From assembly GCA_947650285.1 (NCBI GenBank), contig CANTFL010000251.1:248001-312000 (forward strand): a DNA stretch of 64,000 bases, in the 5' to 3' direction. The notes below the pieces were generated by a model, which worked only from the letters and a program-made list of their open reading frames with translations, was not told the DNA's origin and searched no databases. This DNA comes from Hyaloperonospora brassicae. Its lineage: Eukaryota > Oomycota > Peronosporomycetes > Peronosporales > Peronosporaceae. The position numbers and the translations under genes are program-made. Of the stretch, positions 1 through 60,846 are shown one piece after another. The first letter of the stretch is position 1. Each line of letters starts with the position of its first letter.

Positions 1-419
1 AGCCTCTCTGTGCCGCCACCTTCAACATGATACATCAGCCCCATTGACCCCTCGGTCCAGCAACAGGGCAACTAACTCCACACACGCCGATGGTGATGAC
101 CCTGCCCGCGAGCTGCACTGACTCGACGAGGGTGGACAGGATGACGCAGTTCATGATGATGCATCAATGGGATGTACATGCACCTACCAGTCTCAAGGTC
201 CCGAGCACGGTCTGGACCTTTGGTCATCTTTGAAGAAGGGCTTGGGACCTCCTCGCTCTTGCATAGTCGAGGTCATGGGTGCCACGATCTCGCGTGGCGA
301 CGACACTTGAAGCTGCATGGCCACACTCACAGCGTCAGTGAGAAGCTCCGGTCTGTGTCGGCGGTCTCATTGCCGAATTCACTTCCGCCTTTGCATCTCT
401 CCATTCCCCCACTGATGCG
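1..419. other. Upstream non-coding region
   Basis: No coding sequence is recognisable here. The short open frames have no family features and overlap the next gene's promoter. The last 60 bases carry pyrimidine-rich promoter-like sequence. Confidence 0.5.
366..410 (+). promoter_or_regulatory. Possible oomycete initiator and flanking element
   Basis: CTCATTGCC at 366-374 resembles the oomycete initiator (core TCATT followed by pyrimidines). CCATTCCCCC at 401-410 resembles the flanking CAWTTTNYY-type element. They lie 10-54 bases before the ATG of the protease homologue, which is typical of short oomycete 5' leaders. This rests on motif resemblance only. Confidence 0.25.
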
Positions 420-1364: not shown

Positions 1365-3263
1365 ATAACGTGTCGGTCTTTGTAGCATTGAGTCAAATGG
1401 AGGCCAACGATTGTGTGCTGCAGCCCATTGCTATCAAGCGATGCAGATTCAGGTTCAATTGACAGCGCACGCTCACACGTACAGCGTCAGTTCTATGAGG
1501 ATGTGCGTTTGTTTACAGCTGCGACACACCTTTGTTCCTGTTTGGTTTCCACTTGCTCCTGACTGTTTCGATCAGCGACTGCACGTCGTCGTCGTCGCAG
1601 TACTGCAACACGCGTCTCATTGCACTGACGTTGACGCAACGTACTCGAGTTTGCATTCGAGTGCTGATGTGGACGCGTACGTCAACACATCGAGATGGAC
1701 AGTAAAAGAGATTGTGACGCTGTGCGCACGGTGTGCTCTCTTTTTGACAGGTTGAGTGAGGCAAACCAGACCTTCGCACATTTGAACGACCCGATGGACA
1801 GCACGCCGATGCAATGCGTGACGAGGTCATCTAAAAGTACCTCGTTAATGATGTTGACCGCGACGAGAGGTATGCGCGATAGAGTCGTCCAGAAGACTCG
1901 GGTTGCTCATGTTGACGGCGCACTTGAGCTCAACAAACCACAGGTTCAATGCTGTGGTCACATACAGCATGACCAGTGTGCGTAATATGCACTTGCGCAA
2001 ACCATCTTGAGCGTACGCCTTTGTTCGCTACTGCAATGTCCATCCATTGTATACGCAACTCATAGTCAGGCGTGTGCAATGCATGCTCCAACTACTCATC
2101 AAAGTTCCATCAACGATCAGTGGCACATATCTCTTGCTACGCGATTGTCACTTGTGTATCGGTTCGGGTCGGACCATCCATTGCCGTTTCGATCCGGTGC
2201 CATGTCGCGATACATTTGATCAACGAAACACATAGTTGCGGCTCGAGTTTTCTTGCTTAGCTTTCAGACTTCATCGCTGGTAAGTGCAAGAACTCGGCGG
2301 TTCGTAATCGTTTGCGGGACATGTATGTGTGATGCGCTCGCTGCTGGGAGCGCCATGTGTCCTTGTGTCGCACTTCGGTGGATATGACGTCGCGTGAAGG
2401 ATCGCAGTTTGTCGCGTCGGCCTCTGCGGATTGTGAAGGGGCAGAACAACGCGACAAGTGGTCTTTTCGACGGTCATGTATGTTGTAGAATGAGCCGAGT
2501 AGAAGAAGTCTAGCCAGCGTGCCTCATGCTTCATGCAGCATCACAATGACAGCACACCTATTCGACGTCTTGCTCTGTCTGTAACCGAGACACGCACTGG
2601 TCGTGTTACGATGTCGTGTATGTTTGCCATGGAAAGCAGCAGCGTACTGTACGTTCTCGTGCCACAAATCCCTCTTCTACAACGAGAAACATCGAGCACG
2701 TCCAACATGGCCAGTTGTGTACGACTTCGTAGCCTGCTATAACTGAGGACGTCACCCGTGTCCAGGCGATGAAGCACGTGACTTGGTGGAAAAAGTCTGC
2801 AGACCCAATCGGTACGGCGTCGTCTCACTGCCCCCCCCCTCACTAGACAACGAATGCTAACGAGCTCAATCCAAGGCACCTTCCTGGCCACGACTATCTA
2901 GACCCAGAAACCCCGCGCCAAGCAGTACGAGTGACAAGCACTCGACCGCCAACACACAGACAGCACTAGCGGAAATGCTGTCGTTTGCATCGTATATCGC
3001 GTTGCAAATCCCCGAAATCAGGTGCAGCTTAGAGGAGAGAGAGAGAGAGCGAGCGAACCATCCGACTCAGAAGTCGGGATTTGTCCACGAGCTCATTTAT
3101 TCACAGCCCACAAGATACGATCGATATCCGCCGCCTCAGTCGCCACCCCCTCAGTCAGTCTGTCAGTCTGCCATTCCCTCAGTCCGTCAGCGAGTCAACC
3201 AGTTCCAGAAACCCCACCGCTGTCTCTCGAATGCCAGCGAACCACAACGTCTAAGTCCCCATC
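1365..3263. other. Intergenic region without a supported gene
   Basis: About 1.9 kb between the pseudoprotease and the choline-transporter-like gene. Short open frames occur on both strands, but none shows a domain, codon pattern or intron structure I can support. It holds a C9 run near 2830 and a GA-rich microsatellite at about 3031-3052. Confidence 0.5.
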
Positions 3264-5826
3264 ATGACGTCCACGTCCCCCACCGACTATACCCACATGC
3301 CCAGTGATCCCCACAACAGCAGTAGCAACAGTAGCAGAACAACAGCAGTAGCAGTAGCAGTGCAAACCACAGTCGCAATAGCACTTTGTTGACCGCTGCA
3401 GAGCACCAGCGACCAACAGAGCGTCAGCCGCTTTTAGGGCCGCGCACAGCGGCCGCACTGTCCCCGAGCACCGGTCAGTCGTCTGCGACGCTGTGGCACG
3501 GCACGTTCCCTGTCAATGGGACCGCCGAAGACGGACCCCGTCATCGGCGCCAGTGCACCGACACGCTGTTTGTCGGAGCGCTGGCGCTGTACTGGATGGG
3601 AATGATCGCTGTTGCAATCACTGCGCTCTCGTACGAGAGCAGCGCTTCGTTCGCCCAGGAGATCGAAAGCGGAGTGGACTTTCAGGGCCGCTCGTGTGGC
3701 CCGCATCGGTTCGTGTACTTCCCCGACTTTGAGGCGAATCCCGACTTTGGCGTCTGTGTGACGGTCTGTCCCCGCGCGGCAGGAGACCTCCTGACGGTCG
3801 ACTTACCGCTACTTGGAGCAAACTCAGCAGGTGGCCGGCAGCCGGAGACACTGCTGCATTCGGTCCACTTTACGTCCTACGCGTCCCATCCACGAGCCTA
3901 TGTGTGTGCCCCCGCAGGAGGTGAGATTTTGGATACTGAAGCAGTCGAACAGGATGGATTGTCAAGTTGATGGAGCGGTATTGACTCACATACCTCTATG
4001 TGTTCTCTCTCTCTGTGTGTGTGTGTTGTGCTGGTGTCTTGTTGTTCCGCAGTGGATCTCCATCAAGTGACGATCTTGCAGTTGCAAGACACTGTTGGTC
4101 GCTTTGTGGGAGCTCTTGCAAGTGTAAGTGTCATTGCCGTTGCAGGACTGACTGTTGTGTCGAGCGAAGTTTTTGAGGTGCTGACAGTGTGGGTGCAGTG
4201 TTGGCAGGTGCTGATCATTGCGACAGGCATTGCGCTGTCAACAGCGGGGCTGTATCTAGTGATGCTGCGATACTGCGGCTGCATCAGCGTCTTGTTCTCG
4301 ACCGTAGCGATTGAATCGACGTTGGTCTTCAGCAGCTATCGGCTGCTTCGTGCGGCAGCCGACCCGGTGTTGTACGAGGACGACCCAGTCATGCTGAGCT
4401 CTCTCCAGATCAGTTCGGTTGTCATGTGCTGTGCTGCAATTCTCTTTCTACTGTTTGCAATGGTGAATATGCCTCGACTGCTGCTTGCAGGCGCGTTCAT
4501 CACGCATGCGTCGCGTGCATTGTCCCAGCTCAAGCGCCTCCTTATGCTGCCGTTCATCACGTACGTGCTGTTGTTGCTGCTGTTCGGGTGGGGCATCTTC
4601 GTCACAGTCTGCATTTTCGGAGCTGGAGAGACGTCGACGCGCATCGCAACTGTCGCCGCTACCTCTCCAGCCTACATTCGTGTTGCCACCGAGTCGTTTC
4701 AAGTGAGCACAAAGCTTCGATGGCTCTTCATCTACCATCTCTGCGGAATGTACTGGTCGGTGAACTTTGTTTTGTCGACGAGCGAGATGATCACTGCCAC
4801 AGCCATCTCGCTCTGGTACTTTTCACCGGAGAATCGGATCACTGGACGGAAAGACTTCAAGATTGCCGATCCCGTGTCGTACGCAGTGCACACGACTGTC
4901 AAGTACCATCTCGGAACGTTGGCCTTGAGCTCGTGTTCGGTCGCGCCTGTAGAGCACATCCGATCGTTTCTCTTGTACCTCGAACACAAGAATGAGTTTG
5001 AGGCCAACACTGTCACGAAAGTCATGGCCAGGAGTTGCTGTGTACGTAGCTGCATTTGTGTACAGCAAACGTTCACGCAGCATCGTTGACGATCGACTGA
5101 CTTATGTTCTACTGTTCTGTGTACCCAGTGCTGCATTTGGTGCTTCAAGTACTGCCTCCGGTATATCTGCAAGGAGGCTGTATACGTCACTGCAATCCAA
5201 GGCACTAACTTCCGCACGTCTGGAAAGGTGCGTGCTCTGCTATGAGATTCTGCAGTGCAAACCGATTGGCAGCTCTGATGCCGTTGTCGTCTGTATGTCG
5301 TCATTGACCGCAGTTGGCCTGCACGCTGATATCCTCCAACTTGCTCCGGGTTGGAGCGCTTAGTCAGATCGGGTATGCGTCGGTGCTTCTGGGCAAACTG
5401 ATCGTTTGCACCATTACAAGCCTCATCTCGTGGTTTCTTCTAGACGATGTACGTTGATCGCCCGAATCGAATGAAGCTCTCGATGCCGATGTCTGACGTA
5501 ACTGTCGTTGCTTTGTTCTCGATGCCACAACCTCAGGCTTCTTCCCCCGTGCTGCCGCTCGTTGTCATTGTCCTTTTCTCCTACGGCGCAGCTCATGCCT
5601 TCATGACGGTGCGCTTTTGATCTTGTGCAGATAAAGTCGTATGGAACGAACGTCTGAACGTGAACCATGTGAACAGATCTACGAGACGTCCATCAATATG
5701 CTGCTCATGTGCTTCATCCTCGACGAGAACTTGCACGGCGGTCGGAGCAACTCGGTACACGCGCCAGCCCCTTTGATCCAGTCCGTGAACGACCATTTGC
5801 GACCAAAGTGGCAGACGGTCATGTAG
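3264..5826 (+). CDS. Choline transporter-like (SLC44/CTL) membrane protein, six exons
   Basis: A multi-pass membrane protein of the CTL/PNS1 family, involved in choline uptake or phospholipid supply at the plasma or organelle membrane. I built the exons from splice signals and family similarity: exon 1 to 3920, then 4053-5041, 5129-5227, 5314-5448, 5537-5608 and 5677-5826. All introns are GT-AG, 68-132 bp, and all phases agree. Family landmarks are an early hydrophobic helix after QCTDTLFVGAL, the YFPDFEANPDFGVC loop, the EFEANTVTK segment running into the Cys-rich CCIWCFKYC motif, and a C-terminal MLLMCFILDENLHGG (usual form DTLFLCFLEDLE). The 5' end is problematic. The only credible ATG is at 3264, but the frame breaks in an AGC/AAC-rich tract near 3330-3340, where one missing base would connect it to the exon 1 frame. 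This may be an assembly error, a polymorphism or a missed upstream intron. Confidence 0.8.
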
Positions 5827-5845
5827 CACTCGGCCACTCGTTCAT

Positions 5846-5876
<31 letters not shown>

Positions 5877-6483
5877 TGCAGCTACTGCTGCGTCATTCAC
5901 AAGTATAAAGAGCCAACACGACCCGCCGATCATCGTCTGCGTGGTGTGCACCGCCGTCTGTTTTACCACGCACAAGCTGAAGAGAACTGGATGCTGTTTC
6001 GATTGTGATGCACAGATAGTGCAACAAGGGGTACAACACTGAGCCAAGTGGCAGCTGCTCTGGTGTCAGCAAAGTATCCAGTCAGGTGGCCATTGTCTTT
6101 ATTACGCCAAGAAGCAGCAGCAGTAGCAGTAGCAGTAGCAACAAAACAAGACATTGAGTTCAGACGTCTCAAGTCCAAAGCATAACACTACATCGTAACC
6201 CTCGGCCCGTTTTTCGTCGACCGCCTCCTAGAGGTGACCTGATCCATCATTTGGGAAAAGACCGGCCGGCCCCCACCCCCACCCACCCCACCGTCAACAG
6301 TCTGATAGTCAGACCAAAAAACGTCGAGTCGTTTGTGTATTTTTCTTCTCGGTACGGTCGTCCACTTTCGTCCACTTACATACACCAAGTCCACGTCCGC
6401 TCTCGGGGTGCGGGGGTCTGCGACTGTCCATCCCGCTTGATCCATTCACCAGCTCGAGCGCTCGTTACACACCCACTCGCACA
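5827..6483. other. Intergenic region with simple repeats
   Basis: No gene is seen. The stretch contains an AG microsatellite (5851-5876) and an AGC/AGT trinucleotide tract (about 6113-6140). It then leads into the promoter and 5' leader of the FYVE gene. Confidence 0.6.
5851..5876. repeat. (AG)13 microsatellite
   Basis: Thirteen uninterrupted AG dinucleotides, 25 bp past the stop of the choline-transporter-like gene. Confidence 0.95.
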
Positions 6484-6490
6484 CTCATTC
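6484..6490 (+). promoter_or_regulatory. Initiator-like element of the FYVE gene
   Basis: CTCATTC matches the core of the oomycete initiator. It sits about 80 bases before the chosen ATG at 6566, a normal leader length for oomycete genes. It also argues against a start further upstream. Confidence 0.3.
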
Positions 6491-6565
6491 GCGAGTCTCC
6501 TTGCAACTAACGACCGACCGACCGACCGACCGGCCGAACGAACAACTGCCCGTTGGCACTCTCCA

Positions 6566-9130
6566 ATGGAGCCACTTCTCCCGTCGTCCCCCACGCAGAT
6601 GCAGCCGAACAAACGCTGTGGTGCACAGCCACTTGCGCTCGTCACGTCCGACTCGACGCGGACGGGCAGTCGAGACCGAAGACCCCACTGCATTGACCCG
6701 TTCCACGCGCAACTTATCGCGAACGACAGCCCGACGCGAACCGAGTGCAGTGTCGATGCAGTGTCCGATTTACTACTGCCACAAGTGCCACGTGATGCAA
6801 ACGGATTGAAGCGGGGGGTACCTGTTTTGCCATGCAACAGCGACAAGTTGACTGGAGGTAATCGTACTACTGCAACAACAACAACAACAACAACTACTGC
6901 TACTACTACTGCTACTACTGATGGTACGAGTCGTACGATGACTCCTACTTCGTTATCACTTGTGTCTTCACTAGAGACGGCATTGTCGTCGTCAGTGGAG
7001 AACGAATCGATGGACAATGGTATCAATGGCCCAAGTGGTCTAAGCACGTCGCAAAAGTTGCTCGACAAGTGGTTGTTTCGCAGTGGAACGCCAGTGCTGA
7101 CCGCGTCCGTGACGTCCAAGGAGTCGATGGGAAGCAGTGTCATTGGGGACGACGACGACGAGGCAATGAACGTCGTGGTCATGAACACGAACCTCTTGCC
7201 GCCGCCGTTTGCCAACATGTACGCGTGCGAGTCCTGTCGCGAGGACATTGGCTCGCTGTTGTCCCAAGGCCGACATCACTGTCGGAACTGCGGTGGCTCG
7301 TTCTGTGCCGACTGTACAACGCAGTCGATCGTCGTGCCCTATCGCGCGTATATTTCACGGGGAGAGCTGCGCGTGTGCGATGGCTGCTACTACCGGATTG
7401 AGAATTTTCAGAAACAAGTCCAGAGCACAAGTGTCACGTGGAGTGGCCTCGTGCCACCGCCGAGCGAGCAGATCAAACAGGACTTTGACCTGTCGGAAGA
7501 CGAGGATCCGGTCGCGATTTTCAACTGTGCGCTGTTCTTGGACACGACGCCGTTCTACGGGCACCTCGTGCTCACGCGCAAGCGCCTGTGCTTTCAGAGC
7601 TATGCAGACGGCAAGAAGCGCAAAGTTCCGTACTCTCGCGTGCTGTCGCTGTTGAAGCCGCAGTTTTACTACATTAATGGATTGCAGGTGAAGACAAAGC
7701 AGAGAGAGACGTTCTTCTTGGCCGAGTTCAATGGTCTTCGTGACATGTGCTTTCTCCGACTCGACCAGCTCATTCGGGCGTACCAGGAAGCCAGCAAGCT
7801 GAAAAACCTACGACCTGGCAACTCATCGAGCCCGAAGGAGCTCCGGAGACAGGCACTCGATCGCCGACGCTCGTACAAATTGATCTCGGAGTACATTACG
7901 TCGTCAGGAGGGTGCACTAGCAGTTCGAGCAGCTCGCTCATGTCATCCTCGTCGTTCATATCGACTGTAGGATTCATTGACGTTGACGACGACGAACTGA
8001 CTGCTGACGCGCCTCTCAGTAGCATTGTCGAGGACTGTGGCCACATTGACGATAGCAAATCGACGGCTAGTGACGAAGAACCATTTGAGCCGTTGCCACC
8101 AGATACGCTGCTCGAGAAGATGACGATTTTGCTGGATTGTGAGCTGCGAGCCGATGTGAAGCGAGTCTTTGATCTGTTGTGGAATGATGGTCCTGGCCAG
8201 GAATTCTCGCGCGCGATCATGGAGAAGGCACGCGATATCGACATTGAAATCGAGTCGTGGAAGTTGGTTGACAAAAGCGATCCCGTAACTGCTGAAGCAG
8301 TTCGAAAGGGCTTTGAGATCTCCAAGGAGAATGACTATACTCTTTACCGCACAGTGCGATCCCAGCATCCGCCGAAGACGTCGTTTCCAGGTCTACCGCC
8401 CTACGCCGGGTGCACAAGAACGCAACGATTCCGCCTGGACACCATCTCGAATGACGGAGACAAGTGGGACCGTTTTGTCATCACGGAACTCAACCGCATG
8501 AGCAAGATTCCATTCAGCGATTACTTTGAAGTGGAGATGCGCTACGTGTTTTCTCGTGACGGCAACAACTATTGCCACGTCCAAGTAGGTTTAGTCGTCA
8601 ATTTCCTCAAGGCCACGTGGTTCAAGAGCCAAATCAACTCGTCTACGCGATCAGAGTCGAAAGAAGCGCTCGAGTCATGGGCCAAGCAATCGATTGAATT
8701 TCTCGAGGCTCAACGAAACCGCGTCGTGCCGCTCTCTCCAACGATCAAAGCGCTATCTGCTTCGGGCAGCTTCAGCGAGCTTGTGTCGGGGATAGACAGT
8801 GCTCATCATCCTGCAGTGAAGTCGAGTGCGCATCTGACGCCCACGAGCACTTGTGCGCCGGCAGCTAGGAGGTCACCATCATCATTGACCACTGCAACAG
8901 GTGCTAGTGGCCGTGCTTGGTCGCCGTTGTCGCTCGTACAAGTGTTCCTGCTCGGTTTGCTGGTGTATGGTCTCTCGCTGCTCCGTGGGCATCAGATGCA
9001 AATGCAGCGGCTTGTTGACGAGACGACCAAATTGCTTGAGCAGCTTCAGAAGCAGCAGAGTATGATGCAGGCACAAGCACCGGCCATGCAACAGAGTTGC
9101 GAAGATTCCCGCTACCATCCGATACAATAG
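6566..9130 (+). CDS. FYVE-GRAM-VASt protein with C-terminal membrane anchor
   Basis: An intronless gene for 854 aa. The open frame runs further upstream but has no ATG before 6566. Residues ~1-200 are low complexity with a poly-Thr run. A FYVE zinc finger follows (about 215-280): CESC at 221, RHHCR at 236 and the RVC motif ending at Cys271. These bind PI3P on endosomes, although the WxxD signature is absent. A GRAM domain lies at about 314-405 and a VASt/ASTER domain at about 516-712, with the conserved PFSDYFEVEMRYVF strand and a TWFKSQI segment. Residues ~785-806 form one hydrophobic helix (LVQVFLLGLLVYGLSLL), followed by a Gln-rich coiled tail. GRAM-VASt-TM is the layout of GRAMD1/Aster and yeast Lam proteins, which move sterol between membranes at ER contact sites. 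The added FYVE finger suggests an endosome-ER bridge; that is inference. Confidence 0.85.
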   Translation: MEPLLPSSPTQMQPNKRCGAQPLALVTSDSTRTGSRDRRPHCIDPFHAQLIANDSPTRTECSVDAVSDLLLPQVPRDANGLKRGVPVLPCNSDKLTGGNRTTATTTTTTTTATTTATTDGTSRTMTPTSLSLVSSLETALSSSVENESMDNGINGPSGLSTSQKLLDKWLFRSGTPVLTASVTSKESMGSSVIGDDDDEAMNVVVMNTNLLPPPFANMYACESCREDIGSLLSQGRHHCRNCGGSFCADCTTQSIVVPYRAYISRGELRVCDGCYYRIENFQKQVQSTSVTWSGLVPPPSEQIKQDFDLSEDEDPVAIFNCALFLDTTPFYGHLVLTRKRLCFQSYADGKKRKVPYSRVLSLLKPQFYYINGLQVKTKQRETFFLAEFNGLRDMCFLRLDQLIRAYQEASKLKNLRPGNSSSPKELRRQALDRRRSYKLISEYITSSGGCTSSSSSSLMSSSSFISTVGFIDVDDDELTADAPLSSIVEDCGHIDDSKSTASDEEPFEPLPPDTLLEKMTILLDCELRADVKRVFDLLWNDGPGQEFSRAIMEKARDIDIEIESWKLVDKSDPVTAEAVRKGFEISKENDYTLYRTVRSQHPPKTSFPGLPPYAGCTRTQRFRLDTISNDGDKWDRFVITELNRMSKIPFSDYFEVEMRYVFSRDGNNYCHVQVGLVVNFLKATWFKSQINSSTRSESKEALESWAKQSIEFLEAQRNRVVPLSPTIKALSASGSFSELVSGIDSAHHPAVKSSAHLTPTSTCAPAARRSPSSLTTATGASGRAWSPLSLVQVFLLGLLVYGLSLLRGHQMQMQRLVDETTKLLEQLQKQQSMMQAQAPAMQQSCEDSRYHPIQ

Positions 9131-10300
9131 AGAGACTTACTCACGTACATGACTGATACTAATAAACGGTTGTAGTTTGACAACTCGGTGCTCAACATGC
9201 GATCGATCAGCTCGTGCCGAAATGGACGGACGACAGCCAATGTCGACAAAGATACACACGTTCCGCTTGTGTGTGTGATACAAACAGCGTCGAAGGTGTA
9301 AGCTATTTCGGTAAAGCGTGTGGTATGCAATACCATGTGACAGACGTTTGATCTGCTGAACGGAATCGATTCAGTCGACTGGGATTTCTCTTGTACATAC
9401 TGTACCAACGACCGATCGAGACAATTTGATGGTCGCTACGATACTTGACTTGACTTGTGCGTGAAACAAGAAGCTGTGGAGGAAAACACTGAATCGAGTG
9501 TTGTTTCGTGTGCCTACGTCGCTGTCGAGTTATCAACCACCGATCTGAGGAATGCAATGATGAGCAAGGCAAAGCAAAGAGCGTGAGCTGTGCTACACAA
9601 TACATCGTATGAATCGATGCAGGGCCTGCCCAGTGCCTTTTATCGTAACGAGCAAAGGAATGTAGATATGCCATTGTTCTTCCTTGCCACGCACCAGACT
9701 CGGTTGGTCGATGCAAAGTCTCTCTCGCTCATTGTAGAGCTAAGCTGAAGCTGGCCGTCTATGAAAAACTTACGACATCGCTTTGGCGACTACACAATCC
9801 ACCAGCGCAACGTTTCGTGTTTGTTCGCGGCTGGACATCCCACAGGTTGCGGAAGAAAAAGCTCGAAGCTGAATATCGCGCACTTGGCACAAAAGTTGTA
9901 ATGCTCAGGCCTTATTTTCATTGCAGCCTACATGTGTTGCAAGCCCCTCTTTCCTTTGACAGCGAACGAAGACGCGATCTGGCGGTACAAATGCTGTGCG
10001 ACTGAGCTTTGATCCTGTACGACAACTCGATGTCTTGACGCACCCAACACGAGCGGTCAACAACTGTCGAAACAAATCGATCGAGTTCGGGCAAGCGTCA
10101 CTCGTCCTGGCGTAAAAAGCGCTTTGTAATAAAACAACAAAACGAAAAAGCGAGAGATCGAGCCTCCCCATCGCTATCCTGTCTCAAGCTGCACTACTCC
10201 ACCCCCTCCGAGAAAAACACAGGAGAAAGTAGACACTTGTCGCCGGACAGTTCACCAACGTGCAGCTCCGCCACCGAAACCAAAAGCTCCGTCGAGTGCA
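9131..10300. other. Intergenic region without a supported gene
   Basis: About 1.2 kb. The minus-strand frame at 9303-9716 has no domain or composition supporting expression. The last ~150 bases form the promoter and leader of the methyltransferase gene. Confidence 0.5.
9161..9166 (+). terminator. Possible polyadenylation signal AATAAA
   Basis: A canonical AATAAA lies 31 bases after the stop codon of the FYVE-GRAM-VASt gene. Confidence 0.4.
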
Positions 10301-48560: not shown

Positions 48561-50184
48561 ACATTCCCAAATTTTCACGGTTCAGCTCAAGCCAGTCTTT
48601 TTCCCTTCGGGGCAGTCACGTCGGAGGGAATCCTCCCCTTGGGGAGCCGACGTGGTCGAAGATCTGACGCGGGCACGCTGCACTCGCAGTCGCGGGAGTG
48701 GGCGTAGGAGACCGACGGGTCGCGCAAGCGGCCCTAGCAGGGGTGTTTTACGGACTGGAGGCGTACCCCGCGCCACGTGTCGCCGCTGCGGCGAGCGCAC
48801 ACTCCACGTCAAGGGGCCGCGCGAGCGGCTGAAGGGGCCACCATCGCAGATGGTTGAGCTCCTCGGAGAGATATACGGCGGGTTGGCGTTCTCCACGCCA
48901 CGCAGTCACTTCGGTGATCGCACTCCACGTCGGGGGCCGCGCAAGCGGCTGAAGGGAGCCACCATCGCAGATGGTTGAGCTCCTCGGAGAGATATACGGC
49001 GGGTTGGCGTTCTCCACGCCACGCAGTCACTTCGGTGATCGCACTCCACGTCGGGGGCCGCGCAAGCGGCTGAAGGGAGCCACCATCGCAGATGGTTGAG
49101 CTCCGCGGAGAGATATATGGCGGGTTGGCGTTCTCCACGCCACGCAGTCACTTCGGTGATCGCACTCCACGTCGGGGGCCGCGCAAGCGGCTGAAGGGAG
49201 CCACCATCGCAGATGGTTGAGCTCCGCGGAGAGATATACGGCGGGTTGGCGTTCTCCACGCCACGCAGTCACTTCGGTGATCGCACTCCACGTCGGGGGC
49301 CGCGCAAGCGGCTGAAGGGAGCCACCATCGCAGATGGTTGAGCTCCTCGGAGAGATATACGGCGGGTTGGCGTTCTCCACGCCACGCAGTCACTTCGGTG
49401 ATCGCACTCCACGTCGGGGGCCGCGCAAGCGGCTGAAGGGAGCCACCATCGCAGATGGTTGAGCTCCGCGGAGAGATATATGGCGGGTTGGCGTTCTCCA
49501 CGCCACGCAGTCACTTCGGTGATCGCACTCCACGTCGGGGGCCGCGCAAGCGGCTGAAGGGAGCCACCATCGCAGATGGTTGAGCTCCGCGGAGAGATAT
49601 ATGGCGGGTTGGCGTTCTCCACGCCACGCAGTCACTTCGGTGATCGCACTCCACGTCGGGGGCCGCGCAAGCGGCTGAAGGGAGCCACCATCGCAGATGG
49701 TTGAGCTCCTCGGAGAGATATACGGCGGGTTGGCGTTCTCCACGCCACGCAGTCACTTCGGTGATCGCACTCCACGTCGGGGGCCGCGCAAGCGGCTGAA
49801 GGGGGCCACCATCGCAGATGGTTGAGCTCCTCGGAGAGATATATGGCGGGTTGGCGTTCTCCACGCCACGCAGTCACTTCGGTGTTCGCACTCCACGTCG
49901 GGGGTCGCGCAAGCGGTCCTAAAGGGGTTTGTTGCCTTATATGGCAGCATACCCGCGTTGTACGTGCTGCCGCTCCGGCGGTACGCATGTCCTCAGTCTA
50001 CTTGGTCGCCTTAGCGGTCATGATGGACTCGTAGTTGGCTTCGGTAGGAGGGTCTCTGACCTCGTTGCCGTCGCCCCTGGCTCTACGGAGCCCTTTAGTT
50101 GTCGACCCGATACCCGGGCCGTACTTCTTGTCACACTTATCAGTCGTTAGTTATCATAATAATGGACGTACTTGACACCACCAC
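48561..50184. mobile_element. Candidate inserted segment with 15-bp direct flanking repeats
   Basis: ATGATTTGGATCACG occurs at 48546-48560 and again at 50185-50199, bracketing 1,624 bp that contain the 121-bp array. Sequence outside the repeats differs, which is what a long target-site duplication would look like. The segment has no coding frame apart from array by-products and is full of short hairpins (for example CACGTCGG/CCGACGTG around 48,608-48,655). Class unknown. The repeats could instead be a recombination footprint. Confidence 0.4.
48800..49918. repeat. 121-bp tandem array, nine units plus a partial one
   Basis: Units start at 48800, 48921, 49042, 49163, 49284, 49405, 49526, 49647 and 49768, with a truncated tenth at 49889. 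The period is exactly 121 bp. Units are nearly identical. Two linked variable sites (CTCCTCGG or CTCCGCGG; ATATACGG or ATATATGG) are shuffled among units, which suggests unequal exchange or conversion. Each unit contains several small hairpins (GCCGC/GCGGC, CCATC/GATGG, TCAC/GTGA, GGCG/CGCC). The repeated 117-codon minus-strand frames are by-products and not genes. Confidence 0.95.
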
Positions 50185-52302: not shown

Positions 52303-52307
52303 GTTTC

Positions 52308-52695
52308 TGTAACGGGGCACACCCTTGCGTAACTTAACGCAAGGGATTTGGGTGCCCCGACGGACGTACACGTGGCGAGCGAGGAAGCGTAGGTAGGGTA
52401 AAAGTAGAACTGTTATATTAATAAATTAAGTCTTTAAACTACTGTCTCTTCGTTTGACTTAATTTAATTATACTAATATAACTGCATGTATGGTGACGTC
52501 TCGTCACCACTCATTGCGCGCGTCTTGCGGCGATTGGTGGGTTGATATCATCACGATATCAACCAATGAACAGCCCCTTTGGTCGACCCTTCAATATCAC
52601 CACTTTGGTGATATTGTTTAAAGAATATCCATCTTATATTCTTTATTGTCACTTTCCTTAAGTGACAATATCATGTAACGGGCTGCCCCGTTACA
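52308..52695 (-). repeat. 3' LTR of the young Gypsy element
   Basis: 388 bp, apparently identical to 59895-60282. It contains consecutive stem-loops: CCCTTGCGT/ACGCAAGGG, GGTGACG/CGTCACC, GTTGATAT/ATATCAAC, AATATCACCA/TGGTGATATT, AAGAATAT/ATATTCTT, TTGTCACT/AGTGACAA, and a terminal TGTAACGGG/CCCGTTACA. Confidence 0.95.
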
Positions 52696-52709
52696 TCACC
52701 CCCCCTTAA
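52696..52709 (-). other. Polypurine tract
   Basis: On the element strand AAGGGGGGGTGA directly precedes the 3' LTR. This is the expected position of the plus-strand primer for reverse transcription. Confidence 0.75.
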
Positions 52710-52825
52710 CTGATAGTCACCGTATGACTATCGAAATATGGAGGCCACCCGTTGGCCACCATTGGGACAGGGAGTACTTGTTTCGTCCGTTCCACTCACT
52801 TTCCGCTTGACCTCGCATAGTTAAC

Positions 52826-54430
52826 ATGTCTATGCGAGGTGACTCAAGACCCACACAGCCTGGTGCTGTGCAAGCCTCTGCGGCAGACGATTCGTCGTCT
52901 GCCGCCCCTTCTTCGCCTGCAGCAACAGGTGCTGCAGGTGCACGCGGTATCACGCCGCGTGCGTACGATGACCCCGATGTGGAGGTCATCTACTCTGGCG
53001 AGTCAGACGTGTCTGACTCGGGCAATGCTCCAGAGGCGTCTCGCTCACCGGCGACGCCTCAGTATTCGCCAAGGCCACTGCCGAACGAACGGACTCGTGA
53101 TTCGCATCACAGTCTGTTCGGCAGTGATGACGATGATCAGGGTGGTGAGTTCTATTCTTCACCACCGCCGGCTCGTGCGTCTTCGCACGAGCGTGATGAC
53201 GATGGCTCGCGCCATCGTCAATCTGGGAGCCGTGGTACCGACAAGGGTACCACTGTGAAGCGTGATGAGTTGAAGCCGTGGCGTTTGCCCGAACAACTCA
53301 TCAATAGCCTGTCTCACGAGACAGGCCAACACCATCGAATACCCTTATTCGATGCGACTGAGCTTCACGGCTTGGATCCCAGCGCGAAGAACTTTCGCGC
53401 TGAAGAAGATTTTTATCTCGATGTCTTCCTTAGACATCGATGGTACAATAGCAACCAAAAGCGTGACAAAACATCGCTTTTGGCTGCGTGGAACGCGTTT
53501 GTCCAAAACGTAAAGAATTTTGGACGAGAAGGGTGGCTCAAGAAACTTGAGGCAACACGCCTCAGGTTCGAACGGCGAACGCCAACCGGTGCTAGGTACC
53601 GGTTGCATTGTTTATCGAGTGAGGCAGGCATTCCTTGCCTCACATGGGGAGACCCTTGTGCGAGTTGTGTTGACAACTCGCAGCGTGCACATAGGGATGT
53701 GTACTCCCTAAATTCGCCCTGGGGAAGGGCACATCTCTCGGACGAGATGCGTGACGCGATTGCAAACTTGCAATCCGTCTACAAGCGCCTAGGGCGCGTG
53801 TTTACCGATGGGCCACAGGACTCATCGGATGGGTCTCGTCATACTGGTGGACGAGACCTTCAACATCCATTAACAGCTGAGAGCGGGGCTCCCAGCTGTT
53901 CCAAGAGGGTGGATACCCCCGCCACTGGACGAGGTAGCTCGTCCTTGATCCTGAATCGTCACGGTGATTCAAGATACGCTCCACTAGAAAGCGTTGATCA
54001 CCGTGAGCATCCACCAAAGGATGTGGTGGAGGAGGAACGACCTCCTCCAGAACCCCAGGCCCACCATCTCGACCCTCACGAGATGGATCGCGCAATCGAT
54101 GAATTGCGCGATGACTTGAAGCACGAGCGCGACCGACGCTACGCTTTGACCGACACCGTGCGGAAGAACCGCAAGGGTCACGAGGCTGATCGGGCGAGGG
54201 ATCGCGCCGATTATGCCACGGCGCAGCTTCAGGTCGAGCGGGATGTCCGCTCCCTTTTCGGCGAGCTGGCGACAGCTCGCGGAGAGATAACTCGGTTGAA
54301 TACCGAGGTATCATATCTGCGCGACCAGACGGATCGTCTGGAGCGCGAACGCAAGAACTTGATGGATGTTCTTGAACGTGGGGGCTATCTTCATCGGAAG
54401 AAGAAGGCTCGTGCTGACAGTACGACCTAA
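52826..54430 (+). CDS. Antisense accessory ORF of the Gypsy element
   Basis: A clean frame from ATG 52826 encodes 534 aa, running against gag-pol between the chromodomain and the 3' LTR. I do not recognise the protein. Residues 1-150 are acidic and Ser/Pro/Ala-rich. Residues ~150-330 look globular, with Trp/Tyr/Phe/Cys-rich blocks (FYLDVFLRHRWYNSNQKRD, LLAAWNAFVQNVKNFG, CLTWGDPCASCVDNS). Residues ~400-525 are a heptad-like, highly charged coiled coil (DDLKHERDRRYALTD, LNTEVSYLRDQTDRLE) ending in a basic tail. The last 629 bp (53802-54430) overlap pol on the opposite strand, including the chromodomain, and both frames stay open. Antisense extra ORFs are known in some plant LTR elements. The function here is unknown. 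A role in packaging, RNA binding or control of antisense transcription is speculation. Confidence 0.7.
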   Translation: MSMRGDSRPTQPGAVQASAADDSSSAAPSSPAATGAAGARGITPRAYDDPDVEVIYSGESDVSDSGNAPEASRSPATPQYSPRPLPNERTRDSHHSLFGSDDDDQGGEFYSSPPPARASSHERDDDGSRHRQSGSRGTDKGTTVKRDELKPWRLPEQLINSLSHETGQHHRIPLFDATELHGLDPSAKNFRAEEDFYLDVFLRHRWYNSNQKRDKTSLLAAWNAFVQNVKNFGREGWLKKLEATRLRFERRTPTGARYRLHCLSSEAGIPCLTWGDPCASCVDNSQRAHRDVYSLNSPWGRAHLSDEMRDAIANLQSVYKRLGRVFTDGPQDSSDGSRHTGGRDLQHPLTAESGAPSCSKRVDTPATGRGSSSLILNRHGDSRYAPLESVDHREHPPKDVVEEERPPPEPQAHHLDPHEMDRAIDELRDDLKHERDRRYALTDTVRKNRKGHEADRARDRADYATAQLQVERDVRSLFGELATARGEITRLNTEVSYLRDQTDRLERERKNLMDVLERGGYLHRKKKARADSTT

Positions 54431-57400
54431 GCCTCCCCACGTAAAACGTAGGATGCGTGCGCATCCTACGTGGCAATTCGAGTGTGTATGCATTGCCCTT
54501 GCGATGCAACACTCGAAATGGCCCAATGTATTTCGGCAGTAGTTTACTACTGCCGACACTAGTGACTGCATGTCCAGGTAGGTTTACCGTTGACAGTAGT
54601 ACTAGGTCATTAACCTTAAATGAAAGAACATTTGCTCTTCCATTCTTGTCTGCGTTCCGTTTCTGACGGTCCACCGCATTTGCGATGGAGTCCTGAACGA
54701 AACGGACTACCGCTTCTCGAGTCAGCAGGAAGTTCTCTGCTGACTCTTTGTTTTGTCTAGCAGTGCGCTTCGTGCGCACTGCTAAGAGATTGCTCTCTTC
54801 TTCAGCGAGGTTGTCTTCTTCCTCGCTGGCATAATCGTTGGCGATGCTGAATATACCAGCATCGTCATCATCATCCGAATCAATAATAGCGTCTTCGCTA
54901 TTATTGAGATGATCTTCTTCATCGATGTCGACTTGATCGACATCGGCATCATACGTGACGACGTTTGCGTCGACACGTGATGAGCAAGAGTCAAAACGGT
55001 TTTTGCTCGAGCGAGTCCCTCCCCCCTTATCCAAGAGTCACACTCTAGAAGGGTGGGCACACGTGGATGGCGTAGGCCATTCACGTAAAACGGTGTGTGC
55101 TGTGTTGAAGCATGCACCGAATTATTGATGGCGAATTCCACCATGGGTAGGAATTCGCTCCAACTCGGAAACGAGTGGACATATCCTCGAAGAATCTCTT
55201 CGAGGACACGGTTCGCACGTTCCTTCTGACCATCTGTTTCTGGATGGTCAGAAGTGGACATCTTCAATCGTGTTCCGAGAGTACGGAACACGGTTTGCCA
55301 AAATTCCGCCGTGAACCGAGGGTCACGGTCGGATACGAGTTCACGGGGTAACCCGTGGAGTCTAAAGACCGTGTCTAGAAAGACACGAGCACAACCTTGA
55401 GCCTTGATTGACTCAGGGACAGCAGCAAGATGGACCATCTTGCTGAATCGGTCCACAAACACAAGAATACCATTATTCTTGTGAGCGTCTTCGGGAAACC
55501 CGAAGACGAAGTCCATTGAAACGGACTGCCAGCACTCTGTCGGAACAGGCAGAGGCTGCAATGGCGCACGGGATGAAGGACTAGGCTTCACCCGTTGACA
55601 TACTTCGCAAGCACGGATGTACTTGCGAACAAACTGATACTGGCGGGGCCAGTAAAAGTCGCGACTTACCGTGAGGTAAGTCTTTTCTCTACCACGATGG
55701 CCGCTTGTTGGGGCATCGTGACACTCATACATGATGCGCAATCGCAAATCATGATGAGCGGGTACGACGACACGAGGCGTGTCGTCGGCAACAGCTGTAT
55801 AGTACAGCAATCCGTTGCGTGTACTATACCGATCCGATGGGGATCGGTACAAAGCCGGTAAATCCCTCATGGATTTACTGGATGGATTCACCAGATGATC
55901 CATCAATCGCAGAAGATCCTTATCTTCCGCGTATGCCTTTCGTACGTCGTCAAGTAAACTTGACGACGGGACACTGACTGACAGTGTCGCAACAGTTGGC
56001 TTATCCTCACTGTTGATTTGTGCGTCCGGCTCGAAATCGGGCCGGCGCGAAAGAGCATCCGCGACGACATTGAGTCGTCCCGGTCTATACTCCACGGAGA
56101 AGTTATACTCCGCGAAGAAAGACAGCCACCTCGCCATTCTTTGCGAGAGGTGTGGGCTGTTTACGGCCGTGCGTAATGACGCATGGTCCGTGTAGACTAC
56201 AAACGGTCTATCTCCCAAGAGATAGACGCGAAATTTAGCCAGTGCGTATTTCATGGCAAGGAGTTCCTTGTCATGCACTGGGTAATTACGCTCAGCTGCT
56301 TGCAGCTGACGCGATTGATAACAGATGACGCGCTCCGCGCCATCTGCATCGAACTGCATTAACGCACAGCCGATTGCGAAATCGCTGGCGTCACAGACCA
56401 CATGAAATGGTCTGTCCTGATCTGCAATCGCCAAGATCGGCGATTGCATCAAGCTTTGCTTGATACCTTCAAAGGAACGCTGGCACTCAGCGTTCCATGA
56501 CCACTTGACATTTTTCTTGAGCAAGCAAGAAAGATGTACCGTCATCTCGGCGTAGTTGCGCGAGTACTTGTGCAAGTACGCCGCAAGACCAAGGAACTTT
56601 CGAAGTCCCTTGACATCGACTGGCACTGGCCAGTCGGTGATCGCCTTGATCTTTTCGGGATCAGGGCGTACGCCGTGTTTCCCCACGATGCACCCAAGAA
56701 GTGGTATTTCGCTAGCCGCGAATATACACTTCTTGAGGTTGGCGTACAACTTATGCTTGCGCATAAGTTGAAGAACCTGACGAACGTGAGTTCTGTGAAC
56801 TTCAACGTCCGTCTTCCCGTCCATATCCCGGCTATGGACGAACACATCGTCGAAGTAACTCGGTGCGAAGTCTCGCACCGGTCTCAACAGATTTGTTACA
56901 CATCTGTTGAATGTTGCAGGGGCATTACTCAGCCCCTGTGGCATCACTAGCCACTCCCACAGCATCCCGCTGGGGGTACTCACTGCTGTGAACGGGACGT
57001 CCCGTTCACGCATCAGGATCTGATAGAATCCATCCATCAGATCCATGGACGAAAAGATGGTACTCTTTGACATACCATCTATGATTACGTCCTTCCTCGG
57101 TATCGGCGTCTGAGCCGGTACCGTTGCAGCATTCAACTTGTTGAATGCGTGCACTATCCGCCACCCTCCTGTGGCCTTTCGCACACAGAAGGTCGGAGAG
57201 CTGTGAGGGGATGTTGATTCCCTCACATGGCCCGCTGCTAAGCGATCGGCAAAGAACTTGTCGATCGCTATCACTTGTTCACGAGGCAGTGGCCACTGCT
57301 TCATGACACAGTATTTCGAGCCCGGTTTGAGCTCGATCTCGTGTCGAGTGCCTTTGTCCTTAGGCAACTCGCAAGGTACGGATTCAGGGAACACATCCCT

Positions 57401-58708
57401 GAATTCGATCAAATCCTTATACAAAGGATTTGCCTGAAGTGACTCCCAGGATTGGGACGCGTATCGCTCAATCCGAGTCTTCTCATCGAGGACACTTTCG
57501 TCCATCGATGAGCTGCTGAGAACCCGTTCGTTCTCAGCAAATACTGTTGCCGACCGAATGTCGGTCACATACTCGTCCTCTGTGACGAGTATGCAGATCT
57601 GCTTGACTTTGCCACTACGCAGATCACGCAAGAACCGTTTCGGTTCTAGCGTTGGCAACTGAGTTATCTCCGAAGTCAACTTCGGAGGCACAATCAGATC
57701 AAGCGTATAAGCGCCTACGCTTGATCCGTCATTAACCAAGACGTTCAACGTCTCGGTTTCTTCCTGGGATCTTGCTTCCACAGGTTGCTGAGGGCCTGAT
57801 CCCTCAGCAAGCAACTCTTGAGGAACTCCTTCCTCAAGTACGTGGGGACTTATTCCCTCGACGTCTTCCGACTGTGGCTGTGCAACCACAGTCAGGAACC
57901 GATCCTCTACGGTCGACTCTCCAGTCGACCTAGGATTTTCATGTTGCCCCTTGGGGGCAACAGATTTCTTTCTTCTAAGATGCTGCCCGCTAGGCATGCA
58001 TCCATGTCCCGGTCCACTCGACTTATTCGAGTGGTGGACCTTCGGCGCAGCCTGTACTTCTGTACAGCCGCCGGGAGCTTGCTCCACAGTGTAGTGATCA
58101 ACTACACTGTGACCTTGTGCAGTCGTGCTAACGACCGTACCGCAAGTGAGGCCATCGCACTCACTCGCAGAACATCCACACGCTTGTGGACGCTCCAAGA
58201 TGTTCATCAGATGGCCATCTGATGAACAAGCAGCAGGCATCTTCACGGATCGATGCTGCCAGCTCACCCTTGGCTCGTATTTTCTGAGCCAAGGTAATCC
58301 CAGGATGACATCAAATTTGTCATCCAGATCTAGTACGATGAAATCATCATCGTACTGCTCGCCCTCTAACGTGTAGTGGATTCCTACTACACGTTTCTCA
58401 ATGGTTATCGATGCGCCTGTTGCAAGGCGCACCGTCATCCTTGTGAGGGGAATGTCGCGCTCAACGAACTTGAGCCTACGACCCTCTAGTGACTGGCGAC
58501 GAACAAAGTTGTTCGACGCCCCACAGTCTACTAGGGCACGAAGCGACAAATCATTTGTCGCTTCCAACTTCAAGGTGATGAGCGAAACGTCATCACCAGG
58601 TGCAGAGACACACAATGATTGTGTATCTGGAGCAACTTTCGTCAAGAGATTTGCAAATTCTCTTGAGGTTGCTGGATCAGTAGGGCGCTCCGCCCCTACT
58701 GACCCCAA
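53802..58708 (-). CDS. Gypsy pol: protease, RT, RNase H, integrase, chromodomain
   Basis: The frame has no ATG at its 5' end (it opens on TTG at 58708 within the end of gag), consistent with expression by -1 frameshifting. In order: aspartic protease ALVDCGASNNFV; RT with SSPTFCVRKATGGWRIV, the active-site YFDD (about 56,838-56,861) and LPQGLSNAPATF-like MPQGLSNAPATF; RNase H with VVCDASDFAIGCAL and YTDHASLR; integrase with an HHCC finger (HDAPTSGHRG...CEVCQ), MDFVFGFP, VSDRDPRF and GQKERANRVLEE; and a C-terminal chromodomain (FLVERILNHRDD, YLVQWRGYPPSWNSWEP; about 53,830-54,000). The main frame (54782-58708) breaks near 55,030 at a G6 run, after which the C-terminal frame (53802-55034) continues. 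One indel separates them. It may be a sequencing error, an inactivating mutation or recoding. All catalytic motifs otherwise look intact. Confidence 0.9.
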
Positions 58709-58717
58709 CCATTTTTT
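58678..58717 (-). promoter_or_regulatory. Gag-pol -1 ribosomal frameshift signal
   Basis: In the gag frame the heptamer A-AAA-AAU (plus-strand 58711-58717) matches the X-XXY-YYZ rule. Nine bases further is a stem-loop with arms CAGTAGGG and CCCTACTG extended by GCG/CGC with one bulge (58678-58701). The pol frame is exactly -1 relative to gag and is open here. This is the textbook arrangement; activity is not tested. Hairpins are abundant throughout the element, so the stem alone is weak evidence. Confidence 0.7.
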
Positions 58718-59850
58718 GATGGCCCGTCTCGCTGTTGCGGCTTCGCAACAGCGCTGGACCCACGCCCATTGCCCTTTCTGGCGAATGGTCGTCCATTTCG
58801 CTCAGTACTGTTTGGTACTGGGCGCGGAGCACTACACTCGTATGCGTAGTGCCCTAACTTCTGACAGCGATTGCACCTCTGCAATCGCTTGTTGCTTGTA
58901 GAGCGAGGTCTCTCGCTCTCAACATAACAGAGGTCCATTGGTTCTGGACCTCCGATCTCTTGTCGTCTCGGTGGACGGTAAGAGTTTGAGCTAGCATGAG
59001 CCTGTCTCATGCTAAAGTCTTCCTGTTCCGCGGCTGATATCGCTTCTTCAAGCGTATTCAGCTCAAGGCGGAACAGGTGGCTCCTGACGGGCCCTTCTGC
59101 GAGCCCTTGCATGAACACCGTAATCAACGTGTGTTCATGAACTGGGTTTGCAGTTATACTACTCGCAAGGAGTCGTATATGTTGTGCGTAAGCGTGCACA
59201 TCACGCTTACCCTGCTTGAGTTTCAGGAGCTCTGAACGAGCCCTGAACTCAGCACGTGGCGGCTCAAACGTTTGTCTGAGCCGGGACTTGAAGTCATCTA
59301 GCGACCTAAACACATTTGGGTCGCTACTCTCGAGTCCCAGGGACCAAGTTTTGGCACGCCCTGCCAAGTGGGTCTGAGCAAATGTGAGTTTCATTTGCTC
59401 ATCTTCGACGCGACGAGCCCTTAAGGCTCTGTCGAGTTCGACAAACCATAGTAACAGGGAGTCCTCCGGGACTCCACTGTACTTGGAGATGTCGACTTTC
59501 ATCACTTCGGGACGACGCGCATGCGCCGTCCCGCCCACAGCAGCATGGAATTGCTGCTGTCTCAACAGCTCCGTCTGTTGAGCACCGAGTTCTCTCAACT
59601 GCTCGGCCTGTTGAGAGCCTTGCTGGTGAAGCAAGGCTACTTTCTCCCTCTCGAGAGCAAGTTCATTGTGAATGAACTTGGCGATAGCAGCATGTTGTTG
59701 GTCTCTGTCTAGAGACTCCAACATGGTGCTGACGACGAGTTCGCCTACGGTAGAACTCATTCGTTCTACCGCACCCCATTCGATGTCACTCAAATGGGTA
59801 AACCCTTCACGCGTGGCGTGAAAGGTGTCTTCTTCATCCAACATGTTCAT
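58696..59850 (-). CDS. Gypsy gag
   Basis: 384 aa from ATG 59850. It has an N-terminal acidic and coiled-coil part (LALEREKVALLHQQG, LRELGAQQTELLRQQQ), a retrotransposon-gag core (TFAQTHLAGRAKTWSL...LKQGKRDVHAYAQHIRLLA) and a C-terminal CCHC zinc knuckle CNRCQKLGHYAYEC. Gag forms the cytoplasmic particle that packages element RNA. It terminates at a TAG inside a stem-loop just after an A-AAA-AAU heptamer, so pol is most likely made as a -1 frameshift fusion. The start codon lies inside the stem of a 12-bp-arm hairpin (59834-59859). Confidence 0.9.
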   Translation of the reverse strand: MNMLDEEDTFHATREGFTHLSDIEWGAVERMSSTVGELVVSTMLESLDRDQQHAAIAKFIHNELALEREKVALLHQQGSQQAEQLRELGAQQTELLRQQQFHAAVGGTAHARRPEVMKVDISKYSGVPEDSLLLWFVELDRALRARRVEDEQMKLTFAQTHLAGRAKTWSLGLESSDPNVFRSLDDFKSRLRQTFEPPRAEFRARSELLKLKQGKRDVHAYAQHIRLLASSITANPVHEHTLITVFMQGLAEGPVRSHLFRLELNTLEEAISAAEQEDFSMRQAHASSNSYRPPRRQEIGGPEPMDLCYVESERPRSTSNKRLQRCNRCQKLGHYAYECSAPRPVPNSTERNGRPFARKGNGRGSSAVAKPQQRDGPSKNGWGQ

Positions 59851-59876
59851 GTTGGATGATGTGGTCCTTGGAAGGA

Positions 59877-59892
59877 CTACAAAGTGCTACCA
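59877..59892 (-). other. Primer-binding site
   Basis: On the element strand TGGTAGCACTTTGTAG begins two bases after the 5' LTR. It starts with the TGG expected to pair with a tRNA 3' CCA. I cannot assign the tRNA from memory. Confidence 0.6.
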
Positions 59893-59894
59893 GG

Positions 59895-60282
59895 TGTAAC
59901 GGGGCACACCCTTGCGTAACTTAACGCAAGGGATTTGGGTGCCCCGACGGACGTACACGTGGCGAGCGAGGAAGCGTAGGTAGGGTAAAAGTAGAACTGT
60001 TATATTAATAAATTAAGTCTTTAAACTACTGTCTCTTCGTTTGACTTAATTTAATTATACTAATATAACTGCATGTATGGTGACGTCTCGTCACCACTCA
60101 TTGCGCGCGTCTTGCGGCGATTGGTGGGTTGATATCATCACGATATCAACCAATGAACAGCCCCTTTGGTCGACCCTTCAATATCACCACTTTGGTGATA
60201 TTGTTTAAAGAATATCCATCTTATATTCTTTATTGTCACTTTCCTTAAGTGACAATATCATGTAACGGGCTGCCCCGTTACA
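59895..60282 (-). repeat. 5' LTR of the young Gypsy element
   Basis: 388 bp, apparently identical to the other LTR. GTTTC follows immediately outside, matching the five bases before 52308. Confidence 0.95.
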
Positions 60283-60454
60283 GTTTCATCTTGGGCTCCT
60301 TTTGTTGTAAACAGCAGATAACTTGAGTTGGTGGTGGTTCAGCTGGCCGTGTTTCAGGAAAGCCGTCACCAGATTATGGTGCGGCAGCACATGCAATCCA
60401 TCCGAGCTCTGGTACTATGCTTCATAGTGGCTCGTCGGACTGCAATGTACTTTG

Positions 60455-60846
60455 TGTAACGGGGCAGCCCGTTACATGAAAATGTCATTTGAGAGATAAT
60501 GACAATAAAGAATATTATGTTAAATATTCTTTTAACAATATCACCAATAGTGGTGATATTGATGGGTCGACCAAAGAGTCTGTTCATTGGTTGATATCTT
60601 GACGATATCAACCCACCAATCGCCGCAAGACGCGCGCAATGAGTGGTGACGAGACGTCACCATACACTCAGTTAGATTAGTATAATTAAGTTAAGTCAAA
60701 CAGAGAGACAGTGGTTAAAAGACTTAATTATATTAATATAACAGTTCTGCTTTTACCTTACCTACGCTTCCTCGCTTGCCTTGTGTACGTCTGTCGGGGC
60801 ACCGAAACCCTTGCGTTCAATTCACGCAAGGGTGTGCCCCGTTACA
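60455..60846 (+). repeat. Diverged solo LTR of the same family, inverted
   Basis: 392 bp, beginning TGTAACGGGGCAGCCC and ending GCCCCGTTACA. It is the reverse complement of the young element's LTR with many substitutions. Flanks CTTTG (60450-60454) and CCTTG (60847-60851) agree at four of five bases, suggesting an old target duplication. Stems of the LTR hairpins are kept while loops differ. Confidence 0.85.

Follow-up and report, generated by a model that had tools for sequence, protein, structure and literature searches.

The 64,000-nucleotide stretch of Hyaloperonospora brassicae DNA analyzed here (hereafter, the window; contig CANTFL010000251.1, positions 248,001 to 312,000) contains a complete Ty3/gypsy long terminal repeat (LTR) retrotransposon (52308..60282), which carries an additional open reading frame (ORF) on the opposite strand and whose entire length is a succession of short perfect hairpins. 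We count 177 non-overlapping perfect hairpins over the 7975 bp of the element (arms of at least 6, loops of up to 24), with arms most often of 8 and next of 9, loops most often of 5 and next of 4, and a mean span of 24 nucleotides (nt), and these occur in the LTRs and in every ORF. The pairing in the stems is Watson-Crick only, without tolerance of G.U, and is nearly equal on both strands. We refer to the family of this element as family A and to its sister families as B, C and D. Comparison of copies supports selection on nucleic-acid structure, a conclusion that pertains to family A. The near strand-symmetric, Watson-Crick-only pairing, the hairpins of the sister families at unrelated positions and a family-specific hairpin size go beyond what an initial annotation of the sequence had described.

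Hairpin density and use of coding freedom

Each of the nine 1-kb windows between 52 and 61 kb contains 16-25 perfect inverted repeats (arms of at least 6, loops of up to 10), in agreement with the initial claim of a hairpin chain spanning the LTRs, gag, pol and the antisense ORF, and 54 of the other 55 such windows contain 0-9. The single exception (49,001-50,000, with 15) has two small inverted repeats recurring every 121 bp, which gives it the appearance of a tandem array with no relation to the retrotransposon. All nine hairpins and palindromes that had been quoted individually pair perfectly, among them a loop-free palindrome of 22 bp within the reverse transcriptase (RT) region (56988..57009), whereas the estimate of about fifteen hairpins in 56,821-57,299 comes down to ten non-overlapping ones (arms of at least 6, loops of up to 24) and one more that crosses the left edge.

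Comparison with synonymous shuffles had been set beforehand as the refuting test, and the excess withstands it. For arms of at least 8 and loops of up to 10, pol has 53 repeats against a mean of 1.0 and a maximum of 4 in 200 synonymous shuffles, gag has 13 (mean 0.4, maximum 2) and the opposite-strand ORF 22 (mean 0.7, maximum 3). Synonymous, codon-order and dinucleotide shuffles of family A retain at most one fifth of the repeats with arms of at least 6 (loops of up to 10), and about 1/30 or less of those with arms of at least 8. All ten ORFs of families A-D exceed the highest of 100 synonymous shuffles by one or more of three measures. Nine further ORFs served as controls (four from the host, one from a Copia element, two with other RTs and two from distant Gypsy elements), and one of them exceeds its shuffles, by a small margin. 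That host genes, Copia and other Gypsy elements are unlike the element holds for arms of at least 8, of which the nine controls have 0-1 each, but needs qualification for the host ORF 3998-5089, which with arms of at least 6 lies slightly above its shuffles (5 against 1.6, maximum 4, in 100 synonymous shuffles). Arms of 7 and 8 are also mildly over-represented in the first 44 kb of the window (2.4-fold and 2.7-fold against three shuffles). An origin of the hairpins in chance, base composition or codon bias finds a weak side note in this host ORF and nothing in its favour in family A, where the collapse of repeat counts in all three kinds of shuffle refutes it; with shuffles and controls far below the family A counts, we rejected this explanation as having virtually no prospect of being correct.

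The hairpins in the ORFs were fitted mainly through codon choice, as was proposed initially: in pol, 86 of the 356 windows able to host an 8-bp hairpin with a loop of 2-8 by synonymous choice do so. Indifference of the hairpins to codon phase holds for arms of at least 7 and is weaker for arms of 8. Feasible windows number 90.7 per kb in pol against 75.4 (standard deviation 6.8) in four shuffles of amino-acid order, 103 against 75 per kb in gag and 127 against 92 per kb in the opposite-strand ORF. Strong moulding of the amino-acid sequences was rejected on these counts, whose excess is larger in gag and the opposite-strand ORF than in pol; the element's proteins are moulded at most mildly.

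Strand symmetry of the pairing

The local folding energy of family A is -403 per kb on the sense and -399 on the antisense strand, compared with -228 (standard deviation 5) in six dinucleotide shuffles, and the fraction of G.U pairs is 0.059 and 0.053 on the two strands, compared with 0.137 in the shuffles. Families B, C and D show the same pattern with a smaller effect. The strand difference in the energy of single hairpins is -0.12 (standard error 0.12) in A, 0.11 (0.11) in B, 0.07 (0.19) in C and 0.00 (0.03) in D. Opening a 25-nt site in family A costs 9.75 and 9.57 kcal on the two strands versus 6.68 in four shuffles, that is, about 3 kcal extra on either strand. One control, the distant Gypsy locus L040, also folds below its shuffles (-223/-248 versus -200 per kb). 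Among copies of the element, one-sided stem breaks that are shared, by which we mean present in two or more copies, comprise 21 A.C and 16 G.T mismatches, and those in single copies 83 and 104, respectively. Because the pairing is near-equal on both strands and G.U is not tolerated, a plain model of structured genomic RNA is insufficient. Near strand symmetry and the lack of wobble tolerance therefore point to an agent that mainly sees both strands, or DNA. A genomic RNA under selection for its own fold would be expected to show more tolerance of G.U. Of the initial suggestion of selected RNA structure, selection on nucleic-acid structure is supported in family A.

Conservation of stems among copies

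Changes among family A copies were compared with the positions of stems in RT (13 copies over 1.8 kb) and in the interior of the element (eight copies over 7.2 kb). In RT, 89 of 341 singletons fall in stems versus 93.8 expected, and shared third-position changes do so in 2 of 67 cases versus 19.4 expected for stems present in at least seven copies, or in 11 of 67 versus 25.6 expected when a stem in any one copy is counted. For interior stems present in at least five copies, 31 of 319 shared changes lie in stems (92.2 expected), as do 11 of the 175 shared changes at third codon positions (53.3 expected) and 268 of 1180 singletons (341 expected); under the laxest definition of a stem, these are 76 of 319 shared changes (114 expected) and 385 of 1180 singletons (423 expected). 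In the two stretches of highest divergence, the centre is retained for 13 of the window copy's 22 hairpins in copy c53 and for 30 of 49 in copy c47; many of the kept hairpins differ in the loop only, and some of the c47 losses fall in gaps. In the gag region of c53 (L066), the first ~1.2 kb are far more diverged (up to 25% per 200 bp) than the remainder of that copy, as if subfamilies recombine, and c47 is similarly diverged near its other end.

The non-coding LTRs behave likewise. The 388-bp LTR has seven hairpins with arms of at least 7 and loops of up to 10, and a comparison of 14 LTRs shows one stem intact in every one of them and a second stem intact in 13. The loops of both stems vary in sequence and that of the first also in length, and a few stem changes in the LTRs are matched on both sides. 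Because shared changes avoid stems, and LTR stems persist while their loops change, we favour selection over template switching as the source of the pattern in family A. Lineages of this family that are transmitted tend to preserve their stems.

Sister families and hairpin geometry

RT loci were sampled across the 100.6 Mb host assembly, and their hairpin density is given as inverted repeats per kb (arms of at least 6, loops of up to 10). A check of related copies, which had been called for, shows that high density is a property of the family: family A loci have 15.6-21.2 per kb at 17 loci, including that of the window, and 12.0-14.7 at four more. A 479-base RT query gave 40 scored matches among 1831 candidates, all 40 of them 100% identical after rounding, and family A, which is recently active, is by this indication highly successful in its host. 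The sister families, with RT ~67-70% identical, are intermediate, with 11.2 per kb in family B (L043, L045), 6.0-7.3 in family C (L041, L042, L076) and 7.3-9.6 in family D (L048, L079, L080). Distant Gypsy elements of 28-32% identity (L039/L083, L040/L082, L073 and L078; six loci at four places) have 1.2-5.3 per kb, thirty other RT loci (L009-L038) 1.3-3.7 and L081 2.0.

Hairpin size differs from family to family. In family A the arms measure 8-11 and the spans peak at 23-24 and at 26, whereas family B has spans of 20-22 and family C spans of 22-23. Family D has arms of 5-6 and a sharp span peak at 13, with 86 13-nt windows in which all five outer pairs form versus 7.1 in shuffles, and is almost without excess of arms of at least 8. 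The hairpins are closely packed without long-range order, so that a long-range regular spacing was rejected. Between families, pairs in pol that changed on both sides are Watson-Crick in fractions of 0.28-0.46, mostly about 0.3, over twelve comparisons (chance is about 1/3). Conserved structures common to the families were rejected given this near-chance rate, and hairpin positions are unrelated between families.

Possible explanations for the hairpins

The whole genome of family A is kept in the form of densely packed short hairpins, whose perfect Watson-Crick stems measure ~8-11 bp, and we tentatively propose that the benefit lies in self-folding of both strands against silencing, a proposal that is plausible but may well prove wrong. 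The pairing probably aids the survival of the element's RNA or DNA in the host. The selected property would be short-range self-pairing itself and not particular structures. The least certain part of the scheme is the benefit itself, in which the gag-pol RNA and a putative opposite-strand transcript (or a full antisense RNA) might each self-fold. Self-folded strands, with every stem remaining short, would then be less prone to form long double-stranded RNA with one another, and self-folding would likewise hinder the access of guide RNAs. The outcome would be escape from small-RNA silencing, for which transposon loci are a source in oomycetes. In the part of a study on Phytophthora considered here, 25-nt small RNAs are described as arising primarily from transposable-element loci (PMC3804510). 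For the four families together, it is possible, and we put this forward with a little more hesitation, that a clade of oomycete retrotransposons has turned its whole genome, with the LTRs and every ORF, into near strand-symmetric, family-sized self-pairing modules, which may form a both-strand, sequence-independent pairing shield or may be read by a length-measuring factor. We know of no retroelement architecture that works by such both-strand modules.

Several observations weigh against selection for both-strand self-folding. Strand symmetry may be inexact, and a small sense component is possible. The density of hairpins outside the opposite-strand ORF is about that inside it. The copies compared are related, recombining and of unequal age, whereas the tests take sites as independent, so that their P values serve as no more than a rough guide. 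At the few non-coding positions of the interior, stem avoidance is not seen (4 of 28 shared changes versus 5.2 expected), and in families B, C and D, with too few differences, it is not significant. Compensatory pairing exists but its excess is modest, two-sided transitions at true partners numbering 18 versus 5-13 in six displaced registers. The 13-nt hairpins of family D are weak (median -3.8 kcal), and stability alone therefore fails to explain the trait in that family, which is a chief difficulty for this reading.

A mutation process in which the element's reverse transcriptase would repeatedly use one arm as the template for the other (snap-back template switching), so that near-palindromes become perfect although nothing is gained by it, had been raised in the initial annotation and would account for near strand symmetry, for positions unrelated between families, for a family-specific length and for hairpins in non-coding LTRs, and the excess of two-sided paired changes over displaced registers agrees with it. 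An apparent absence of arm-copied clusters of change was overturned by a systematic count of 270 contrasts in hairpin presence between copies, in 13 of which one arm carries 3-4 changes and the other none. One hairpin, private to copy c54 (interior position 6464), looks arm-copied, since the changes by which it arose are confined to a single arm; a c47 hairpin (interior position 4781) shows a similar but less clean gain, with one change in the other arm. Arm copying may thus create some hairpins. Against it as the general cause, the majority of the 13 lopsided contrasts seem to reflect loss of the hairpin from one copy, and 137 of the 270 contrasts involve a single-base difference. In a comparison of 21 rows, 52 one-sided stem breaks are shared, but just 2 of the shared changes are two-sided and keep the pairing; single rows add 17 two-sided paired and five unpaired two-sided changes, and 6 of the 19 two-sided paired changes have a one-sided intermediate among the copies. 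Changes in coding stems are purged more than copied, and arm copying leaves unexplained why one-sided changes are then kept out of the stems when two-sided changes are so few. We consider this process improbable as the explanation of the hairpins.

Selection confined to the sense genomic RNA of gag-pol, for Gag packaging, particle compaction, stability or translation, fits the dense structure over the whole length of the element. Loops of family A are A-rich in the sense strand (0.32 versus 0.24 outside loops), and families A and D lean slightly to sense folding, by 4 and 11 per kb, whereas all six control stretches, as oriented, lean the opposite way, the antisense strand folding better by 7-25 per kb. 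However, G.U is not tolerated over A.C in sense stems, hairpin energies do not differ between the strands beyond the error in any of the four families, and the loop base bias is weaker, absent or different in B, C and D, so that we regard such selection as unlikely. A cause at the level of DNA, either hairpins in single-stranded cDNA or double-stranded palindromes bound by a protein of fixed footprint (13 nt in D, ~20-26 in A-C), agrees with near strand symmetry and strict Watson-Crick pairing, and among the rival explanations a ruler acting on DNA agrees best with family D and its sharp 13-nt span. On the other hand, a simple count of loop words, made without a formal motif search, revealed no obvious loop motif, no protein known to us recognizes self-complementarity irrespective of the bases involved, and the loop length of 4-5 nt in A and B is in keeping with single-strand hairpins; a DNA-level cause, too, seems rather unlikely to us.

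If the hairpins do help, they would represent an inexpensive defence written in the sequence itself, open to any element and attainable for the most part by changes at synonymous sites, and natural families of differing hairpin size and strength would allow the effect of structure on small-RNA silencing to be tested. Near strand symmetry and family-specific size are hard to square with ordinary selection on RNA structure and point to something not yet understood.

Comparison with known systems

The element shares its LTRs, target-site duplication, gag domain and the order protease-RT-RNase H-integrase with Ty3/gypsy elements such as yeast Ty3 and those of Peronospora, Phytophthora and Globisporangium. 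RT proteins of the named oomycete matches (Peronospora effusa, Phytophthora and Globisporangium) are 67-94% identical to that of the element, the highest value being that of a Peronospora effusa protein. The genomes of Ty1 and Ty3 are described, in the part of the report consulted, as having stable highly structured regions, up to 30% (PMC11381356). Unlike Ty3 RNA as mapped in that part, the present element consists of uniform short perfect hairpins from end to end. A search of Rfam gave no matches, 16 pattern matches among viral contigs included no relative, and the titles and opening lines of abstracts in the open-access literature searched yielded no description of such a retrotransposon.

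Some RNA viruses carry genome-scale ordered RNA structure, which lies on the genomic strand and in which G.U pairs are tolerated. The element resembles these in a folding energy far below that of shuffles over its whole length, in largely synonymous-site fitting and in structure positions that are not conserved between relatives. It differs in that its pairing is Watson-Crick only, near-equal on both strands, local and family-sized, and in that the carrier is a retrotransposon; the expected strand preference and wobble tolerance are missing. Quasi-palindrome correction by template switching would leave perfect inverted repeats of short length that affect the two strands equally, and a few candidate arm-copied gains in family A are reminiscent of it, but two-sided changes are rare among the shared ones and the stems are purged of changes. 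Some plant Gypsy elements carry opposite-strand ORFs near their 3' end, a likeness to the present element in position; among the hairpin families, all four carry an opposite-strand ORF.

Organization of the element and its surroundings

The gag-pol unit lies on the reverse strand. Its 5' LTR (59895..60282) and 3' LTR (52308..52695; 388 bp with TG...CA ends) are identical, and inspection of the flanks revealed the target-site duplication GTTTC on both sides (52303..52307 and 60283..60287). The gag ORF (58696..59850, reverse strand, 384 amino acids) matches the Pfam domain Retrotrans_gag with a score of 59.4 bits against a cut-off of 24.1, and two CCHC zinc-knuckle models match it, both scoring below their own cut-offs. 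The pol ORF (54782..58708, reverse strand, 1308 amino acids) has Pfam matches to protease (residues 55-157), RT (509-674), RNase H (738-868), H2C2 and the integrase core (integrase, 986-1155).

The opposite-strand ORF (52826..54430, forward strand, 534 amino acids) lies near the 3' LTR. Named relatives come from Hyaloperonospora arabidopsidis and Peronospora matthiolae, and one relative carries the automatic name core-binding domain protein. The predicted structure is of low confidence (mean predicted local distance difference test score of 55.8) and suggests helices, among them a C-terminal helix of ~100 residues and a helical stretch predicted with moderate confidence; the product could possibly be a partner of the hairpins. 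Complete copies of families B, C and D (L055-L057) each have an opposite-strand frame of 465-505 amino acids, and the distant Gypsy loci L082 and L083 (9.8 kb each, of uncertain completeness) have no such frame of at least 200 amino acids.

An LTR of a sister subfamily (60455..60846, reverse strand) lies 172 bp away from the element, without an attached element in the window. It is 90% identical to the element LTR, most stems being retained and the loops altered, and 39 further places match it at 94-97% (40 scored among 2967 candidates). A family-A-like LTR (90%) is also found at 1048-1440 of L056, just outside the complete family C element (1586-9408). Internal direct repeats occur in gag-pol of families B, C and D. 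In L082, a perfect direct repeat of 3183 bp (143-3325 and 6355-9537) flanks the 988-amino-acid RT frame of the distant Gypsy element and represents either very long LTRs or a recent duplication.

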